Part shown: one piece after another, positions 2,036-8,736 of the stretch | Layout: each line of letters begins with the position of its first letter | Numbering within the stretch: the stretch's first letter is position 1 | NCBI RefSeq assembly: GCF_015234355.1 | Contig: NZ_JADGMV010000007.1 | Coordinates: 1 to 64,000 of the forward strand | Origin: Psychrobacter sp. NG25 | GTDB taxonomy: Bacteria; Pseudomonadota; Gammaproteobacteria; Pseudomonadales; Moraxellaceae | Length of the DNA stretch: 64,000 nt | Direction of reading: 5' to 3' | Notes under the pieces: model-generated | What the model was told of the DNA's origin: nothing | Databases searched by the model: none | What the model saw: only the letters and a program-made list of their open reading frames with translations | Program-made: the position numbers and the translations under genes

Positions 2036-3412
2036 TTATTTCGCCTGTAAAAAATCCTTGACCTCTAACAATAATAGTTCGTTATCATCTGCTCGATTTG
2101 GGTCTCGGCTAGAGGAAAAAGGCAGGTTGTTATCATTACCTACCACGATGTGGCTTTCATCGATGATGTCTACATTTTCAATAGTAAAAAATGGAAATAC
2201 AAATTTATCACCTACTAAAGGTTTTTTAGCCACGCCCTTGGTATCTTTAATAGCCATCAAATTAATGTACGCCACTTTTTCAGCGATCTGACTTTTAGGG
2301 TCTAATTTGACCTTGTATATACGTTTGAATACGGCTGGTTTGTCAAAGCACTGACTTTTATCTACAGCTGCTGTTTGGCACGCTCTATCGCTTACACCTT
2401 CTAAATTGTCTCGTTCAATAATCAAACCATAAGTATCATCGATCATATTAAAGTCTCCGATCGCATACTCGTTATTATCAAGTATGTATTTCCAGCTCTT
2501 ATCAGTATAGGTATTACGCTTGGTATCAAACTGTAAGATGCGCAAGAAGTTCTGACCATCGACTGAATCATATTCTTGACGCTTTTGGTTATAAACAGCG
2601 CCTTCTAACATAGGATATAAATAACGTCCATTTGGGGCTGATGCCATACCTTCAAAGCCCTTAGAGCGTTTAATACTGTATAACGGTAGATTGTCATCGG
2701 GTTTGCTTGGTAATTGTAAGGTGGGATGGTCTGGAGAATGTACGGTCTCCCCATCTACTTTTGTGTCATATATGGCTTTAAGTGTGCCTTTGCTGTCAAA
2801 TCTTAGTAACCATGGGCCAAACTCTTCACCGACCCAAATATCACCATCAATGATTTGGAAACTTTCTGGATCAAAATCAGATCCTGTTAAATAGCGGCGA
2901 TTACTGTCTTGATGCGTAATTCGGTGAGGTATCACTTTATTCTGATCATTAAAGAAAATAGTTTGTATAGGTTCAAAAACCCCTTTATCCCAATCCATTC
3001 GATACTGACGCATGAATAACATGGCATCTGGTGAATTGGCTTTACTACCAAAACCATTATCGGTCAATATCCAATAACTGCCATCAGGCATATATTTAAT
3101 ACCAGAATGTCCTTGCACAGGTTGTCCTGGAAATGGCAGCTTGATACCAGTGGGACGATCTGCCGATTTACCTTCAACACTGCCAAGTTGTTCAACCAAT
3201 TGCCCCGTAGTGTATTTACCACTGACTTGCAAATCTTTGGGCGCATCAGTTGGAGCAGAGATAAATGTTTGAGAGGGTAGTAGGGCATGTGAGACCAATT
3301 CAGCAGGGTAGGCATCCGCTGCTGTTGCTAACTGACCAATACCAGTTGTGGCGATGATAGCCATACTTATTCTCAAAAAATTAGCCCTTCTTGTGTACAT
3401 TTTTTTCTCCAA
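2036..3412 (-). CDS. secreted esterase-like activity of phytase family protein
   Basis: A 458-residue protein with an N-terminal signal peptide (hydrophobic ISMAIIATTGIGQLATAADA, cleavage likely after ATA). The body matches the family described as esterase-like activity of phytase: HSGIKYMPDGSYWILTDNGFG near 101-121, DPESFQIIDGDIWVGEEFGPWLLRFD near 181-206, and a C-terminal VDIIDESHIVVGNDNNLPFS. The fold is a beta-propeller and the likely site is the periplasm or outside. The substrate is not known; phosphoesters are likely. It is transcribed alone, convergent with the isomerase gene; AGAAAAAA precedes the ATG, a weak ribosome site. Confidence 0.85.
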   Translation of the reverse strand: MEKKMYTRRANFLRISMAIIATTGIGQLATAADAYPAELVSHALLPSQTFISAPTDAPKDLQVSGKYTTGQLVEQLGSVEGKSADRPTGIKLPFPGQPVQGHSGIKYMPDGSYWILTDNGFGSKANSPDAMLFMRQYRMDWDKGVFEPIQTIFFNDQNKVIPHRITHQDSNRRYLTGSDFDPESFQIIDGDIWVGEEFGPWLLRFDSKGTLKAIYDTKVDGETVHSPDHPTLQLPSKPDDNLPLYSIKRSKGFEGMASAPNGRYLYPMLEGAVYNQKRQEYDSVDGQNFLRILQFDTKRNTYTDKSWKYILDNNEYAIGDFNMIDDTYGLIIERDNLEGVSDRACQTAAVDKSQCFDKPAVFKRIYKVKLDPKSQIAEKVAYINLMAIKDTKGVAKKPLVGDKFVFPFFTIENVDIIDESHIVVGNDNNLPFSSSRDPNRADDNELLLLEVKDFLQAK

Positions 3413-3594
3413 TTCTTCAATTTATTATTGCTGATCGTTAATCAAGAAGATTAAATTATGGCTATGAAGTATGTCTGTTTAATGACATCAAGACTCACGC
3501 TGAATAGGATGGTCAATGTGGCTTACGATAATATGAAAGCAATATGGTTATGCCTATTTATGTCTATACGCTCAGTTAAATTAGGCATCTAGAG

Positions 3595-3614
3595 ATTCAA
3601 CTATTTAGTTGAAT
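3595..3614. promoter_or_regulatory. Palindrome upstream of mesX, possible operator
   Basis: ATTCAACTA and TAGTTGAAT are 9-bp arms of a perfect inverted repeat separated by TT. It lies about 180 bp before mesX and 55 bp before the MetR-like box. Symmetry and position fit a LysR-type or other dimeric regulator site; no factor is identified. Confidence 0.4.
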
Positions 3615-3668
3615 AGATAATCAATACTGACACTATCCAATACTCTTTATACTATTAAACTATATAAA

Positions 3669-3681
3669 TGAATTAAATTCA
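3669..3681. promoter_or_regulatory. MetR-like box upstream of mesX-mesD
   Basis: TGAATTAAATTCA matches exactly the gammaproteobacterial MetR consensus TGAA-N5-TTCA. It lies 115 bp before a methionine synthase operon, where such a site makes biological sense. In this AT-rich region the motif could also arise by chance. Confidence 0.5.
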
Positions 3682-3796
3682 TCTTTTATTTAAATTAAGT
3701 CGTTTTTATTCATGTTGCGATTCGGGCATAATCTATTCCATACACAAATTTGGTTTTGTCTCAGATAATGAGAATAGATTAAGGTAGCAGATCCCC

Positions 3797-4819
3797 ATGA
3801 GTAAAGAATTTACCTGTTCAATTAAGCGCATTCGTTTTGACGAAAACTATCAGCCTGCAGACAGCACGCGTTTGACGACTAACTTTGCGAATTTGGCACG
3901 TGGTGAGCACCGCGAAGAAAATTTACGTAAAACGCTACGCATGATAAATAACCGCTTTAACGCGTTGGCGCATTGGGATAACCTGACAGCAGACCGTTAT
4001 TCTGTCGAGGTCGATATCATTTCTGTCGATATGGATGTCGAAGGTAATGGTCATACATTCCCAATTATTGAGACGTTACAAACAACGATAGTTGATCATA
4101 AAGATAACAAACGTATTGACGGTATGATTGGTAATAGCTTCTCTTCTTATGTACGTGACTACGATTTTAGCGTGGTATTGCCAGAGCATCGTGATAAAAA
4201 TTTAGCATCAATAACGCCAGATAATTTTGGTGAGTTGCATGGCAAACTGTTCCAATACTTATTGAACTCAGAAGCATACAACGCTAGTTTTCATAAAAAA
4301 CCTGTGATTTGTCTGAGTGTCTCAACCAGTAAAACCTACTATCGTACAGCCAACCAGCATCCTGTTTTAGGCGTTGAGTACAGACAAGATGACTATTCGT
4401 TGACTGATGATTATTTTCATAAGATGGGCTTAACCGTTCGTTACTTTATGCCTGAAAATAGTGCGGCACCTTTAGCCTTTTATTTTGCCGGCGACTTGCT
4501 AAGTGATTACACTGATCTTGAGCTGATAAGCGCTATCAGTACGATGGAGACGTTCCAAAAAATCTACCGTCCTGAGATTTATAATGCCAACTCGAGCGCA
4601 GGTGAAGTGTATCAACCGAGCTTAAAGTACCAAGATTACTCACTGACTCAAATTGTGTATGACCGCGCCGAGCGTAGCCAGATGGCAGTGACACAAGGCA
4701 AATTCACTGAAGAACAGTTCATTAAGCCTCACCAAGCTATTCTGGAAGAGTGGGCTGCAAGCTACGATGTGACAAGTGAAGGGGCCAAAAAAAATGTGGC
4801 TAAACAACAAGCTGCCTAA
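3797..4819 (+). CDS. mesX: DUF1852 protein, MesX partner of methionine synthase MesD
   Basis: A 340-residue DUF1852 protein, recognised by its N-terminus (FTCSIKRIRFDENYQPADSTRLTTNFANLARGEHR) and NMxxINNRFNALAHWDN-like region. It has no signal peptide or membrane segment. In Acinetobacter this family (MesX, a putative oxygenase) is reported to be required for methionine synthesis by the folate-independent synthase MesD, in an oxygen-dependent way. Here mesD follows 41 bp later, then a flavin reductase that could supply reduced flavin. An AAGG ribosome site is 12 bp before the ATG. A MetR-like box lies upstream. Confidence 0.88.
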   Translation: MSKEFTCSIKRIRFDENYQPADSTRLTTNFANLARGEHREENLRKTLRMINNRFNALAHWDNLTADRYSVEVDIISVDMDVEGNGHTFPIIETLQTTIVDHKDNKRIDGMIGNSFSSYVRDYDFSVVLPEHRDKNLASITPDNFGELHGKLFQYLLNSEAYNASFHKKPVICLSVSTSKTYYRTANQHPVLGVEYRQDDYSLTDDYFHKMGLTVRYFMPENSAAPLAFYFAGDLLSDYTDLELISAISTMETFQKIYRPEIYNANSSAGEVYQPSLKYQDYSLTQIVYDRAERSQMAVTQGKFTEEQFIKPHQAILEEWAASYDVTSEGAKKNVAKQQAA

Positions 4820-4869
4820 CTGATCCTCACTAATTAACATAATAAAAAATAAATAAGAAGATGAATCAC

Positions 4870-5898
4870 ATGAAATTATTATTACCGACCTCAACCGCTG
4901 GCAGCTTACCGAAACCTTCTTGGCTAGCAGAACCGGAGAAAATCTGGTCACCTTGGGCATTAGAAGGTGAGCAGTTGATTGAAGCCAAACAAGATGCTCT
5001 ACGGTTATCACTACAAGAACAAGTACACGCAGGGATTGATATCGTCAGTGATGGCGAACAGACCCGTCAGCACTTTGTGACCACTTTCATTGAGCATCTG
5101 GATGGCGTCGATTTTGAAAAGCGTGAGACGGTCAAAATCCGTAATCGCTATGATGCGAGCGTGCCGTCTGTTGTTGGCGCAGTGAGTCGCCAAAAGCCAG
5201 TATTTGTAGAAGATGCTAAATTTTTACGTCAGCAGACCAATCAGCCAATCAAGTGGGCGCTACCAGGGCCAATGACGATGATTGATACACTGTATGATGG
5301 TCATTATAAAAGTCGTGAAAAACTGGCTTGGGAATTTGCCAAAATCCTTAATCAAGAAGCGAAAGAGCTAGAGGCTGCTGGTGTTGATATCATTCAATTC
5401 GATGAGCCTGCCTTTAACGTGTTTTTTGATGAGGTGAATGACTGGGGTATAGCCACTTTAGAGCGTGCCCTGGAAGGTTTGAAATGTGAAACGGCTGTCC
5501 ATATTTGCTACGGCTATGGCATCAAAGCCAACACCGATTGGAAAAAGACACTGGGTTCAGAGTGGCGCCAATATGAGAAAGCTTTTCCCAAATTACAGCA
5601 GTCGAAAGTCGATATTATCTCACTAGAGTGTCAAAACTCACGTGTGCCTATGGATTTGATTGAATTGATTCGCGGTAAAAAGGTAATGGTTGGTGCCATT
5701 GATGTGGCAACCAATACTATTGAGACACCAGAAGAGGTAGCAAATACGCTACGCAAAGCGCTACAATTTGTCGATGCTGACAAGCTGTATCCTGCAACCA
5801 ATTGCGGTATGGCACCGTTGTCTCGCCAAGTTGCAAGAGGCAAGCTAAATGCATTAAGTGCAGGCGCACAGATTGTTCGTCAAGAGCTGACTGCCTAG
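4870..5898 (+). CDS. mesD: folate-independent core methionine synthase, MetE C-terminal domain type
   Basis: A 342-residue protein equal to only the catalytic half of cobalamin-independent methionine synthase. It transfers a methyl group to homocysteine; short forms lacking the MetE N-terminal domain do not use methyl-folate. Zinc ligands expected from MetE are present: His211 and Cys213 (HIC), Glu253 (SLECQN) and Cys312 (TNCGM). TAGSLPKP and VSDGEQ near the N-terminus are also typical. An ATG 9 bp upstream (4861) directly abuts AAGAAG; the ATG at 4870 has better spacing and was chosen. The context with DUF1852 assigns it to the MesD type. Confidence 0.88.
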   Translation: MKLLLPTSTAGSLPKPSWLAEPEKIWSPWALEGEQLIEAKQDALRLSLQEQVHAGIDIVSDGEQTRQHFVTTFIEHLDGVDFEKRETVKIRNRYDASVPSVVGAVSRQKPVFVEDAKFLRQQTNQPIKWALPGPMTMIDTLYDGHYKSREKLAWEFAKILNQEAKELEAAGVDIIQFDEPAFNVFFDEVNDWGIATLERALEGLKCETAVHICYGYGIKANTDWKKTLGSEWRQYEKAFPKLQQSKVDIISLECQNSRVPMDLIELIRGKKVMVGAIDVATNTIETPEEVANTLRKALQFVDADKLYPATNCGMAPLSRQVARGKLNALSAGAQIVRQELTA

Positions 5899-5950
5899 CG
5901 TTTATTGGTACACATGAGTGTTTACTGATCTGAAATTTAGGACTTAAGAT

Positions 5951-6463
5951 ATGATTGAAGCAACTGACTTTAGAGATGCCATGTCTTTATTGACAACCGC
6001 AGTAAGTGTTGTCACCACAGAAGGCCCATCTGGTCTTCATGGATTTACGGCATCTGCAGTATGTAGCGTCACAGATACGCCGCCGACCTTGCTTGTCTGT
6101 ATGAATCAGACGTCTCGATCACATGGCTACTTTATTGAAAATAAAATCTTAAGTGTTAATGTGTTGGGTGCACGGCATGAACAGATATCTAATGCATTCG
6201 CTTCTAAATTGCATTCAGCAGCGCGCTTTGAATATGGCGCTTGGACGCAATTGCAAACAGGCGCCCCTGTATTAGAAGATGCGTTGGTCAGTTTTGACTG
6301 TGAGATAGAGCATATTCAAGAGGTTGGTACACACAGTGTGTTTATGTGTCGCGTTGTCGCTATCAAACAATCTGTCCAACAAGGTATACGAGAGGAAAGC
6401 TTGGTTTATTTTAATCGTGCTTATCACCAAGTGGGGCAGATGGCTCAAGTAGACATTGCTTAA
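5951..6463 (+). CDS. flavin reductase family protein
   Basis: A 170-residue flavin reductase-like FMN-binding split-barrel protein: FRDAMSLLTTAVSVVTTEGPSGLHGFTASAVCSVTDTPPTLLVCMN is the typical N-terminal half, followed by LSVNVLGARHEQIS and an FDCEIEH strand. Such proteins reduce free FMN or FAD with NAD(P)H and feed a separate oxygenase. It lies 52 bp after mesD in the same direction, so the natural inference is that it supplies reduced flavin to MesX. AGGACTTAAGAT precedes the ATG. Confidence 0.85.
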   Translation: MIEATDFRDAMSLLTTAVSVVTTEGPSGLHGFTASAVCSVTDTPPTLLVCMNQTSRSHGYFIENKILSVNVLGARHEQISNAFASKLHSAARFEYGAWTQLQTGAPVLEDALVSFDCEIEHIQEVGTHSVFMCRVVAIKQSVQQGIREESLVYFNRAYHQVGQMAQVDIA

Positions 6464-6532
6464 GTCAGCTATCTCATTATCAAAAAAATATAGTAAGCAT
6501 TTCACCAAATCTAACTAAGAAGTAAATAATCC

Positions 6533-7348
6533 GTGGAATTAATCATTTTTTTAATCATAGGTGCTCTAGCAGGATTTGCTGCAGGGCTTTTCGGTGTGGG
6601 CGGTGGAACCATCATCGTGCCACTATTATTCATTGTCTTTACCCAAATGGGCTATCCTGCTGACACTATTATGCATTTGGCCTTGGGGACTTCGCTTGCG
6701 ACCATTATTATCACGTCTATCAGCTCGTTAATGGCGCACAATAAAAAAGGCGCAGTTATGTGGCCTGTCTTTAAAAATCTGGCACCAGGCCTAGCGATAG
6801 GGTGTTTTTTAGGGGCAGGGATAGCAGGACAGATATCTGGATTATATCTTCAGCTCATCGTTGGTGTGTTTCTGCTTTGGGTTGCCTTTAAAATGTTTAA
6901 GGGTGGTAAAAAGAAAACCACTAGCGATACTGGTAATATTCATACAGTATTGCCTTCAAAACCTAAGCAACTGGCGGCAGGCGGGGTTATTGGTATTGCT
7001 TCTGCCATCTTTGGCATCGGCGGTGGCAGTTTAACCGTACCTTATCTCACGCGCTACGGTGTGGTTATGCAAAAAGCAGTGGGTACGTCAGCAGCGTGCG
7101 GTCTACCTATTGCCATTGCAGGTGCGTTAGGGTTTATGTTTTTTGGAATGAAGCAGCAAGTAGATGTACCCAATACGATTGGTTTTGTCCACATTTATGC
7201 CTTTTTAGGTATCAGTATCATGAGCTTTTTTACCGCAAAGATAGGTGCGAAAGTGGCTCATATACTATCACCACAATTATTAAAAAAGTGTTTTGCGGTA
7301 TTGTTGACCATAGTGGGATGCTATTTTCTTTATAAAGGACTGGTTTGA
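6533..7348 (+). CDS. TauE/SafE family sulfite/organosulfur exporter-like permease
   Basis: A 271-residue integral membrane protein with about eight helices. It shows the internal duplication of the family: GAL(x)GFAAGLFGVGGGTIIVP-type motif at residues 12-30 and GIASAIFGIGGGSLTVPYL near 154-172. Members move sulfite, sulfoacetate or related anions out of the cell. It starts with GTG, with AAGAAG about 10 bp before. It lies 69 bp after the flavin reductase and may belong to the methionine/sulfur operon, which would suggest a sulfur compound as substrate. A strong terminator follows at 7401. Confidence 0.85.
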   Translation: MELIIFLIIGALAGFAAGLFGVGGGTIIVPLLFIVFTQMGYPADTIMHLALGTSLATIIITSISSLMAHNKKGAVMWPVFKNLAPGLAIGCFLGAGIAGQISGLYLQLIVGVFLLWVAFKMFKGGKKKTTSDTGNIHTVLPSKPKQLAAGGVIGIASAIFGIGGGSLTVPYLTRYGVVMQKAVGTSAACGLPIAIAGALGFMFFGMKQQVDVPNTIGFVHIYAFLGISIMSFFTAKIGAKVAHILSPQLLKKCFAVLLTIVGCYFLYKGLV

Positions 7349-7728
7349 GTATAAAGAATCAGATTATCAACTCATAAATACGAATGCTAATAATGAATCG
7401 AGGGTCAAAGTGATAGTCAACTATTGCTTTGACCCTTAGTTTTTTATATCGATTTTTATCATGACCTTTCTATTGATACTCACACCATAAAGCCTCACAA
7501 CCTTTATTTTGTATGATGAGTTCTGTTTATACTCGTGTTGGTGATTCGTCTCGTTTTGCCGATATGTCTCGGTATTATGGTAATCTTAGCTTGTTCAAGT
7601 TGAGCGGTCTACTTGTGAGTATTACTGTTGAAACCGTTGTTTAAACAAGTGCTGAGACAGTCTCGATAATGAGTGCCTTTTTTACTTGATAAAAACGCGC
7701 TGACCGATTCTAATAATAAGGAATAACC
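7349..7728. other. Intergenic region before the alcohol dehydrogenase
   Basis: It contains the terminator of the sulfur operon (7401-7447). The remaining 280 bp upstream of the dehydrogenase show no repeat, RNA gene or clear promoter. Confidence 0.6.
7401..7447 (+). terminator. terminator of the mesX-TauE operon
   Basis: A 16-bp stem (AGGGTCAAAGTGATAG / CTATTGCTTTGACCCT, two G-U pairs) with a TCAA tetraloop is followed by TAGTTTTTT. Confidence 0.88.
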
Positions 7729-8736
7729 ATGATTAATGCATATGCAGCAAAAGAAAAAGGCGGAGAATTCAGCCCTTACCAATACGACCCTGGCACGCTA
7801 GGCAATCACGAAGTAGAAATTGAAGTACACAGCTGTGGCGTTTGTCACAGTGATTTATCTATGTGGGAAAATGAGTGGGGCATGACCCAATATCCGTTCG
7901 TGGGTGGCCATGAGGTGGCAGGTAAAGTACTGGCAAAGGGTCAGCATGTTACACACTTAGAGCTTGGTGATAAAGTCGGTTTGGGCTGGCACAAAGGCTA
8001 TTGCAACGTTTGTGATTTGTGTATGAGTGGTGACCACAATTTATGTGCTGAGCAAGAAGGCACTATTATTGGTAACCACGGTGGATTTGCAGATAAAGTA
8101 CGTGCAAAAGACACCAGTGTTATTAAAATTCCAGAAGGCTTGGACTTCAATGCAGTGGGGCCATTACTTTGTGGCGGTATCACAGTGTTTAACCCATTGG
8201 TGCAATACGATATCAAACCAACTTCTAGAGTGGCGGTTATTGGTATTGGTGGCTTAGGTCATTTGGCACTACAATTTGCCAATGCATGGGGCTGTGAAGT
8301 AACAGCATTCACCAGCGAATCAAAAATGGAAGAAGCAAAAGAATTGGGTGCGCACCATAGCCTAAATTCAAGAAATGAGAGCGACATTGAAGCAGCGGCA
8401 GGCTCTTTTGATTTGGTTATCTCGACTGTGAACGTTGACATGAATTGGAACGCCATTATCAAAACCTTGAAACCTAAAGGTCGGTTGCATTTTGTTGGAC
8501 TGCTGGCTGCCCCGCTAGAGATTTCAGCTGCACCACTGATTATGGCTCAAAATAGCGTGTCAGGTTCGCCAGCTGGGTCACCGTCTACCCTTCGTCAAAT
8601 GTTAGATTTTGCCGCACGTCACAATATTCAGCCAGTGACTGAAACGTACAAAATGTCTGAGATAAACGAAGCGTTTGCAAGATTAGAAAGTGGCAATGCT
8701 CGCTATAGAGTAGTATTAGAAAGAGACCAAGAATAA
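7729..8736 (+). CDS. zinc-dependent alcohol dehydrogenase / aldehyde reductase (Ahr-like)
   Basis: A 335-residue medium-chain dehydrogenase. Catalytic zinc ligands are Cys39, His61 (GGHE) and Cys148; the structural zinc Cys92, Cys95, Cys98 and Cys106 are all present. The Rossmann motif [13 protein letters not shown] lies near residues 168-180. The pattern is closest to the cinnamyl-alcohol/Ahr-YahK group, which prefers NADPH and reduces aldehydes. No operon partner; AATAAGGAATAACC precedes the ATG and a terminator follows. Confidence 0.87.

Follow-up and report, generated by a model that had tools for sequence, protein, structure and literature searches.

How does a methionine synthase without a folate-binding half obtain its methyl group, and how are its genes controlled? 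The question is raised by a four-gene locus at positions 3797-7348 of a 64,000-nucleotide stretch of Psychrobacter sp. NG25 DNA (contig NZ_JADGMV010000007.1), the whole of which we call the window. In this locus mesX, mesD, a flavin reductase gene and a gene for a TauE/SafE family permease (tauE) follow one another. We consider it fairly probable that they form an operon under MetR control through which methionine is made independently of B12 and folate, and in which reduced-flavin chemistry takes part. This reading is built on the genes themselves, the zinc- and substrate-binding residues of MesD, a conserved upstream box, a probable MetR, presence/absence profiles, the loss of MetF and the occurrence of distinct reductases; whatever is said below of the binding of MetR, the use of flavin by MesX, the source of the methyl group and the role of the permease, we infer from these.

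The core of the system (MesX and MesD, their need for oxygen, and a nearby flavin reductase) has been in print since 2021, and the system itself is of a known kind; what is added here concerns its regulation, the replacement of metE, the loss of MetF and the recruitment of reductases. Price et al. 2021 (PMC7857596; here and throughout, published statements are those of the excerpts of each paper on which we draw) named both proteins, and reported for relatives of the window proteins that MesD requires MesX and O2, and not MetF or cobalamin (B12), that the two proteins by themselves can rescue E. coli in M9 minimal glucose medium, that mesXD shows a metF deletion rescue, and that a putative flavin reductase is often found near MesX and MesD. 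The oxygen requirement mentioned in the initial annotation of this locus agrees with that paper. Elsewhere, strains are described that seemingly escape N2O by means of MesD homologues (PMC13059711).

The closest known systems are those of Sphingomonas koreensis (PMC7857596) and Acinetobacter baylyi (ACIAD3524/3523, reductase ACIAD3522). In the A. baylyi record (L197) mesX, mesD and the reductase gene are arranged as in the window, with identities to the window proteins of 71% for MesX, 90% for MesD and 67% for the reductase, whereas the permease gene that comes next in the Psychrobacter window is absent from it. The nearest named MesX relatives of the window protein are from Psychrobacter, with identities of up to 96%.

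A likely operon around a core methionine synthase

The reality of the four open reading frames is far beyond chance, and their Pfam and NCBIfam families agree with the order of genes given in the initial annotation:

3797..4819, + strand: mesX (DUF1852, putative oxygenase), 340 aa; PF08908 (MesX) E 2.8e-176, 585.6 bits
4861..5898, + strand: mesD, a core methionine synthase that lacks the folate-binding half, 345 aa; NF006589 706 bits (cut-off 392), 3rpd 669 bits
5951..6463, + strand: RutF-like flavin reductase, 170 aa; PF01613 (Flavin_Reduct) E 9.5e-38; RutF model 198.7 bits, below the RutF cut-off of 254.75
6533..7348, + strand: TauE/SafE family permease, 271 aa, GTG start; PF01925 E 5.9e-53, 180.4 bits (cut-off 32.6)
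7400..7447, + strand: probable intrinsic terminator and operon end, a 17-pair stem followed by a T run; fold z −7.2

The intergenic gaps are short (41 bp for mesX-mesD, 52 bp for mesD-reductase and 69 bp for reductase-tauE), and because tauE is followed by a strong hairpin at 7400-7437 that ends in a T tail, the four genes likely form one transcription unit. A pattern scan of the region found one terminator, the one 3' of tauE, compared to a mean of 3.0 in shuffled sequences.

MesD matches the catalytic Meth_synt_2 family (PF01717, E 2.5e-38), and its match to the N-terminal Meth_synt_1 family (PF08267) stays at 20.2 bits, below the cut-off of 27. In alignment, H214, C216, E256 and C315 correspond to the zinc ligands H641, C643, E665 and C726 of E. 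coli MetE, and S15, E66 and D181 to its homocysteine-binding S433, E484 and D599, which bears out the description of the protein as a core MetE with all four zinc ligands and no folate half. The two enzymes thus share the catalytic half (29% identity over 321 aligned residues, with all seven zinc and substrate residues kept), whereas only MetE has the folate-binding half and MesD, as published, needs MesX and O2. Compared with the protein of A. baylyi DSM 14961 in L197, which we take to be ACIAD3523, MesD scores 710.6 bits; the phmmer threshold for MesD in PMC7857596 is at least 560 bits against ACIAD3523.

Reductases behind mesD and the chemistry of MesX

We located 109 mesX places in Moraxellaceae and examined 81 of these neighbourhoods (33 from Psychrobacter and 48 from other Moraxellaceae). 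Outside the family, we examined 31 named stretches and, as a separate phylum sample, 20 stretches, together with 23 MesX-positive genomes; named and unnamed stretches overlap partly in the genomes represented. A reductase gene follows mesD in 33/33 Psychrobacter and 48/48 other Moraxellaceae stretches (in one of them, L065, both mesD and the reductase are broken), so that co-conservation of the reductase with mesXD holds inside the family in 81 of 81 cases. A reductase is likewise present in 19 of the 31 named stretches from elsewhere. Two of these 19, from Wohlfahrtiimonas, are of the window type (68% identity for L215), three belong to a second RutF-like type (39-44% identity to the window protein for the two compared), and 14 score low against a profile of the window reductase. 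Six of those 14, when compared, were 25-27% identical to the window reductase and 73-90% identical to one another, and for three that were scanned HsaB was the best fit, at scores below the HsaB cut-off. A reductase was thus recruited behind mesD two, perhaps three times. That two or three distinct subfamilies fill one slot favours a reduced-flavin role for MesX. The arrangement resembles two-component flavin-dependent monooxygenases, in which a reductase of such a subfamily (RutF-, HpaC- or HsaB-type) stands beside an O2-dependent partner, as here; unlike the oxygenases of those systems, MesX matches no known oxygenase in the sequence and fold searches made.

Several results weigh against a flavin-dependent step. 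The reductase is absent from 12 of the 31 named stretches and from all 20 stretches of the phylum sample (0/20); no flavin reductase lies within 5 kb of mesX in 23/23 MesX genomes outside Moraxellaceae, one of which has no PF01613 match at all; MesX and MesD function in E. coli without the reductase (PMC7857596); and no recognised flavin site or fold emerged for MesX. The flavin-dependent oxygenase step suggested in the initial annotation is favoured by the 81/81 Moraxellaceae stretches and the distinct subfamilies elsewhere, and is not favoured by the phylum sample. We regard the reductase as a helpful yet replaceable partner. The best-surviving alternative is that MesX needs O2 and not free reduced flavin, for example as a metal oxygenase, and that the reductase is a general one (for flavin or iron reduction) that rides along. 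The absences just listed, in the 20 phylum-sample and 12 named stretches and in the genome without PF01613, speak in its favour, as do the invariant MesX histidines H148 and H188, which together with several acids could bind metal. Riding along would hardly explain why reductases of distinct subfamilies occupy one slot, and we hold this alternative to be unlikely, if worth keeping in sight.

The structure prediction of DUF1852 that had been proposed as a check for a flavin or metal site was run and yielded no recognised flavin site or fold. The AlphaFold2 model (49 sequences) has a pLDDT (predicted local distance difference test) of 79.6, and the conserved part around residues 116-141 is poorly modelled. 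Searches for a solved relative by sequence gave a best E of 0.46 with the single sequence and 1.2 with a profile of 27. With the model as query, 0 of 378 Foldseek rows reached E ≤0.001 (best 0.055 at prob 0.06), and the best VIA match had Z 4.0, with none ≥5; acetyltransferase rows stood at Z 3.0-3.6. Matches as weak as these cannot be relied on. The 27 MesX proteins have no second Pfam family in common; six others each hit one protein, at E 0.075 or worse. A new fold is possible on the evidence of the model. Our literature searches, with most subscription journals outside their coverage, found no MesX biochemistry after 2021.

Some neighbourhoods stand out. In one Psychrobacter genome, L065 (G023:C5:126133-134095) carries a second, intact mesX with mesD and the reductase gene each split into short frames, and another full mesXD-reductase set lies in L064. 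In a contig labelled Bacillus subtilis (L221), mesX-mesD-reductase is 94% identical over 2.9 kb to that of Pseudochrobactrum (L229), probably owing to contamination or a wrong label. Other clusters of mesX neighbours, only some of which could be named by Pfam (LysR-type regulators other than MetR, short-chain dehydrogenases/reductases, QueH, pseudouridine synthase and more), are seemingly lineage-local or scattered.

A probable MetR and the replacement of metE

Two features lie upstream of mesX:

3668..3682, + strand: MetR-like box ATGAATTAAATTCAT, a perfect ATGAA-N5-TTCAT, 114 bp 5' of the mesX start codon
3727..3732, + strand: probable −10 element CATAAT of a predicted mesX promoter, within a block conserved in Moraxellaceae mesX upstream regions

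The box is the sole match in the window (0.15 expected), and its pattern occurs at 7 places genome-wide compared to 3 for a reversed control pattern. The exact TGAA-N5-TTCA was found in 59 of the 81 Moraxellaceae mesX upstream regions vs. 1.7% in shuffles. Allowing at most one mismatch, it was present in 33/33 Psychrobacter regions, 16/16 of groups g7/g10, and 31/31 from Acinetobacter and others (13, 18 and 22% expected, respectively), as well as in 17/20 of the phylum sample and 22/30 of the named regions outside Moraxellaceae (13 and 12% expected); one of 17 g7/g10 stretches, which has no usable upstream region, and L222 of the named set were left out of this count. Further blocks 3' of the box, including the −10-like one, are also conserved in Moraxellaceae; a simple promoter scan gave 14 sites vs. 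11.2 in shuffles and missed the −10-like block. A riboswitch 5' of mesX was considered and rejected: at gathering scores Rfam finds only one 5S rRNA and three tRNAs in the whole window, and at E up to 5 over positions 3300-8000 it gives sub-threshold matches only, none of them 5' of mesX.

The same PF08908-metE2 pair, with the same box consensus, lies inside MetR regulons described by Leyn et al. 2014 (PMC4239095), where homocysteine is the MetR coactivator and the survey as excerpted reports MetR to be absent from Moraxellaceae; we found here both the box and a probable orthologue. Queried with E. coli MetR, the NG25 genome yields one protein that is 46% identical (E 1.3e-78), the next LysR-type protein following at 1.5e-16. 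In a sample of 149 Moraxellaceae genomes, which are related to one another, so that Fisher values from these profiles are overstated and are not probabilities, the NCBIfam MetR model at E ≤1e-40 detects a protein in 135. We find it in 107/107 MesX-positive genomes, in 25/26 with full MetE only, and in 3/16 with neither, two of these three genomes being 63 and 89% complete. At 30 of 37 metE places (three being stubs) the MetR-like gene lies no more than 2 kb away in divergent orientation, much as metR and metE are divergent in E. coli. In 181 stretches around mesX, from about −4.5 kb to about +6.5 kb, 14 MetR-like open reading frames score at least 188 bits with one or other of two MetR queries, and the next scores 64. 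We conclude from the sequences that a probable MetR orthologue exists in the NG25 genome and in all MesX-positive genomes sampled, a distribution that speaks against the 2014 statement.

It is quite improbable, in our judgement, that another LysR-type regulator binds the upstream palindrome while the MetR-like protein has a different job. The NG25 genome has at least 24 LysR-type matches, from which such a regulator might be drawn; the MetR-like protein scores 277 bits against an NCBIfam cut-off of 382, below which all 135 Moraxellaceae proteins fall; and the 2014 survey (PMC4239095) saw no MetR in the family. Weighing on the side of MetR are the presence of the gene in 132 of the 133 genomes that have MesX or a full MetE, compared to 3 of 16 without either, and the fact that it is divergent to metE in Moraxellaceae and to mesX in L116. 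MetR would be expected to bind the mesX box. Counting against control by MetR are the 8/30 named and 3/20 phylum-sample regions that have no box at one mismatch. Such a link would fit repression by B12, in that with B12 MetH would drain the homocysteine coactivator: on B12 addition the DUF1852 gene went down by 8.3 and 8.1 log2 in two A. baumannii strains, and in AB5075 the drop was 8.3 log2 for this gene and 2.5 log2 for the flavin reductase gene (PMC12892962).

Of the 149 genomes, MesX occurs in 100 that have no full MetE, and full MetE in 26 that have no MesX; 7 have both and 16 neither. PF08267 matches occur in 36 genomes, three of which hold stubs and were not counted as full MetE: in these MesX-positive genomes (G011, G084, G115) only the first 26 to 67 MetE residues remain, beside metR. 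In Moraxellaceae mesX and full metE are thus largely alternatives, and the mesXD operon has for the most part displaced metE, with the link to MetR kept. The NG25 genome itself has MetH and MetF, and no PF08267 or CobS match.

Permease, MetF and the methyl source

tauE is the fourth gene in 29 of the 33 Psychrobacter stretches (once as a fragment), but in only 9 of the 48 from other Moraxellaceae (two being too short to show the gene), so the co-conservation of the permease with mesXD that had been anticipated does not extend across the family. Outside it, 5 of the 23 genomes, four of which belong to a single genus, have a gene of another TauE subfamily no farther than 5 kb from mesX (0.28 expected; P is about 0.017 when they are counted as two lineages), and such genes also occur in Nitrosomonas and uncultured Colwellia mesX stretches. 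These proteins are 35-48% identical to the window permease, and one subfamily is 83-84% alike internally. Its members (L145 355-1173, L151 6798-7616, L242 3734-4546), from one genus and an uncultured Colwellia, are divergent to mesX, as if mesXD and tauE had moved together. The link between mesXD and the permease is real but optional. The window permease shares the PF01925 family with the TauE/SafE sulfite exporters, and a literature search for TauE with MetR and methionine biosynthesis returned one unrelated item only. Past the terminator, window positions 7729-8736 encode a protein that matches the NADPH-dependent aldehyde reductase Ahr (496 bits, cut-off 470) and is seemingly unrelated to the operon.

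The initial annotation took the four genes to be a possible complete unit with an unconventional methyl source, and the permease to point to a sulfur compound; read in this way, the permease would take up a sulfur compound that serves as methyl source. The Psychrobacter stretches and the excess of TauE genes near mesX elsewhere lean that way. We nevertheless judge this very improbable: the permease is patchy, missing in 39/48 stretches of other Moraxellaceae (two of which might be cut off before it), with A. baylyi among the named ones; the reductase is missing from all 20 phylum-sample stretches; MesX and MesD suffice in E. coli (PMC7857596); and named TauE/SafE members are sulfite exporters.

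PF02219 (MetF) is absent from 17/17 MesX-positive genomes without MetE and MetH matches, in which mesXD is the sole methionine synthase found; of the remaining 90 MesX-positive genomes, 87 have a PF02219 match and 3 do not. The counterpart figure of Price et al. is 69% of 85 (PMC7857596). This profile argues strongly against methyl-tetrahydrofolate from MetF as donor. That MesD does use 5-methyl-tetrahydrofolate from MetF, as the presence of MetF in the NG25 genome might suggest, is scarcely conceivable given its missing folate-binding half, the 17 genomes and published genetics, including the metF deletion rescue, that contradict MetF dependence (PMC7857596). In two of these three MesX-positive genomes without MetF, metH activation domains lie in short frames (G050:C11:366-1178 and G086:C21:237738-238502; 549 and 272 aa), where metH may have decayed together with metF.

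Eight stretches encode, close to mesX, a MetF-like protein whose cysteine-rich PF12225 tail resembles MetV, and a ninth has a broken copy, compared to 0.07-0.5 expected from rough densities:

L139 6871-8280: MetF-like with PF12225 tail
L194 5097-6500: the same
L202 2489-3883: the same
L214 3832-5232: the same
L218 2423-3814: the same
L222 3012-4469: the same
L232 9733-11214: the same
L241 9737-11218: the same
L156 1-601 and 737-1156: the same, broken

The PF02219 plus PF12225 architecture was confirmed in the six members scanned. The hosts are Acinetobacter, Nitrosomonas and Achromobacter, and the Achromobacter copy lies directly 3' of the reductase gene. This is apparently the ACIAD1783 family set aside by Price et al. 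(PMC7857596). It is not the methyl source in the 17 mesXD-only genomes, because these have no PF02219 match; our guess is that it handles methyl-folate trapped when MetH lacks B12.

To return to the MetR-controlled, flavin-linked operon, its working may be pictured as follows. When MetH lacks B12, homocysteine would accumulate, and MetR, acting at the 3668-3682 box, would switch on mesX-mesD-reductase-tauE. The reductase would provide reduced flavin, with which MesX and O2 might form a methyl carrier from some central metabolite; zinc-bound homocysteine on MesD would accept the methyl group to give methionine. The permease would be an accessory anion transporter, dispensable for the core reaction. 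In Moraxellaceae the operon would have largely replaced metE yet stayed linked to MetR. More tentatively, and as a possibility that we rate well below an even chance, MesX would be the founding member of a structurally new class of enzymes that use reduced flavin and O2; rather than hydroxylate, it would turn part of a common metabolite into a methyl group fit for transfer and pass this on to a zinc-homocysteine enzyme. Because mesXD is paired with distinct reductases, reconstitution of MesX and MesD with reductase and flavin is a sensible first assay.

These findings narrow the question of the MesD methyl source: no MetF is needed, the system serves bacteria without detected MetH or MetE, and reduced flavin is probably involved. 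Through the probable Moraxellaceae MetR, mesXD becomes linked to the supply of B12 and the level of homocysteine; this would account for the strong drop of the DUF1852 transcript on B12 in A. baumannii (PMC12892962). If the more tentative reading of MesX as a new class of enzyme is true, methionine would have another chemical route besides methyl-folate and methyl-cobalamin, one that aerobes would have adopted repeatedly in place of MetE, left under the control of MetR, and combined with whichever flavin reductase was available.

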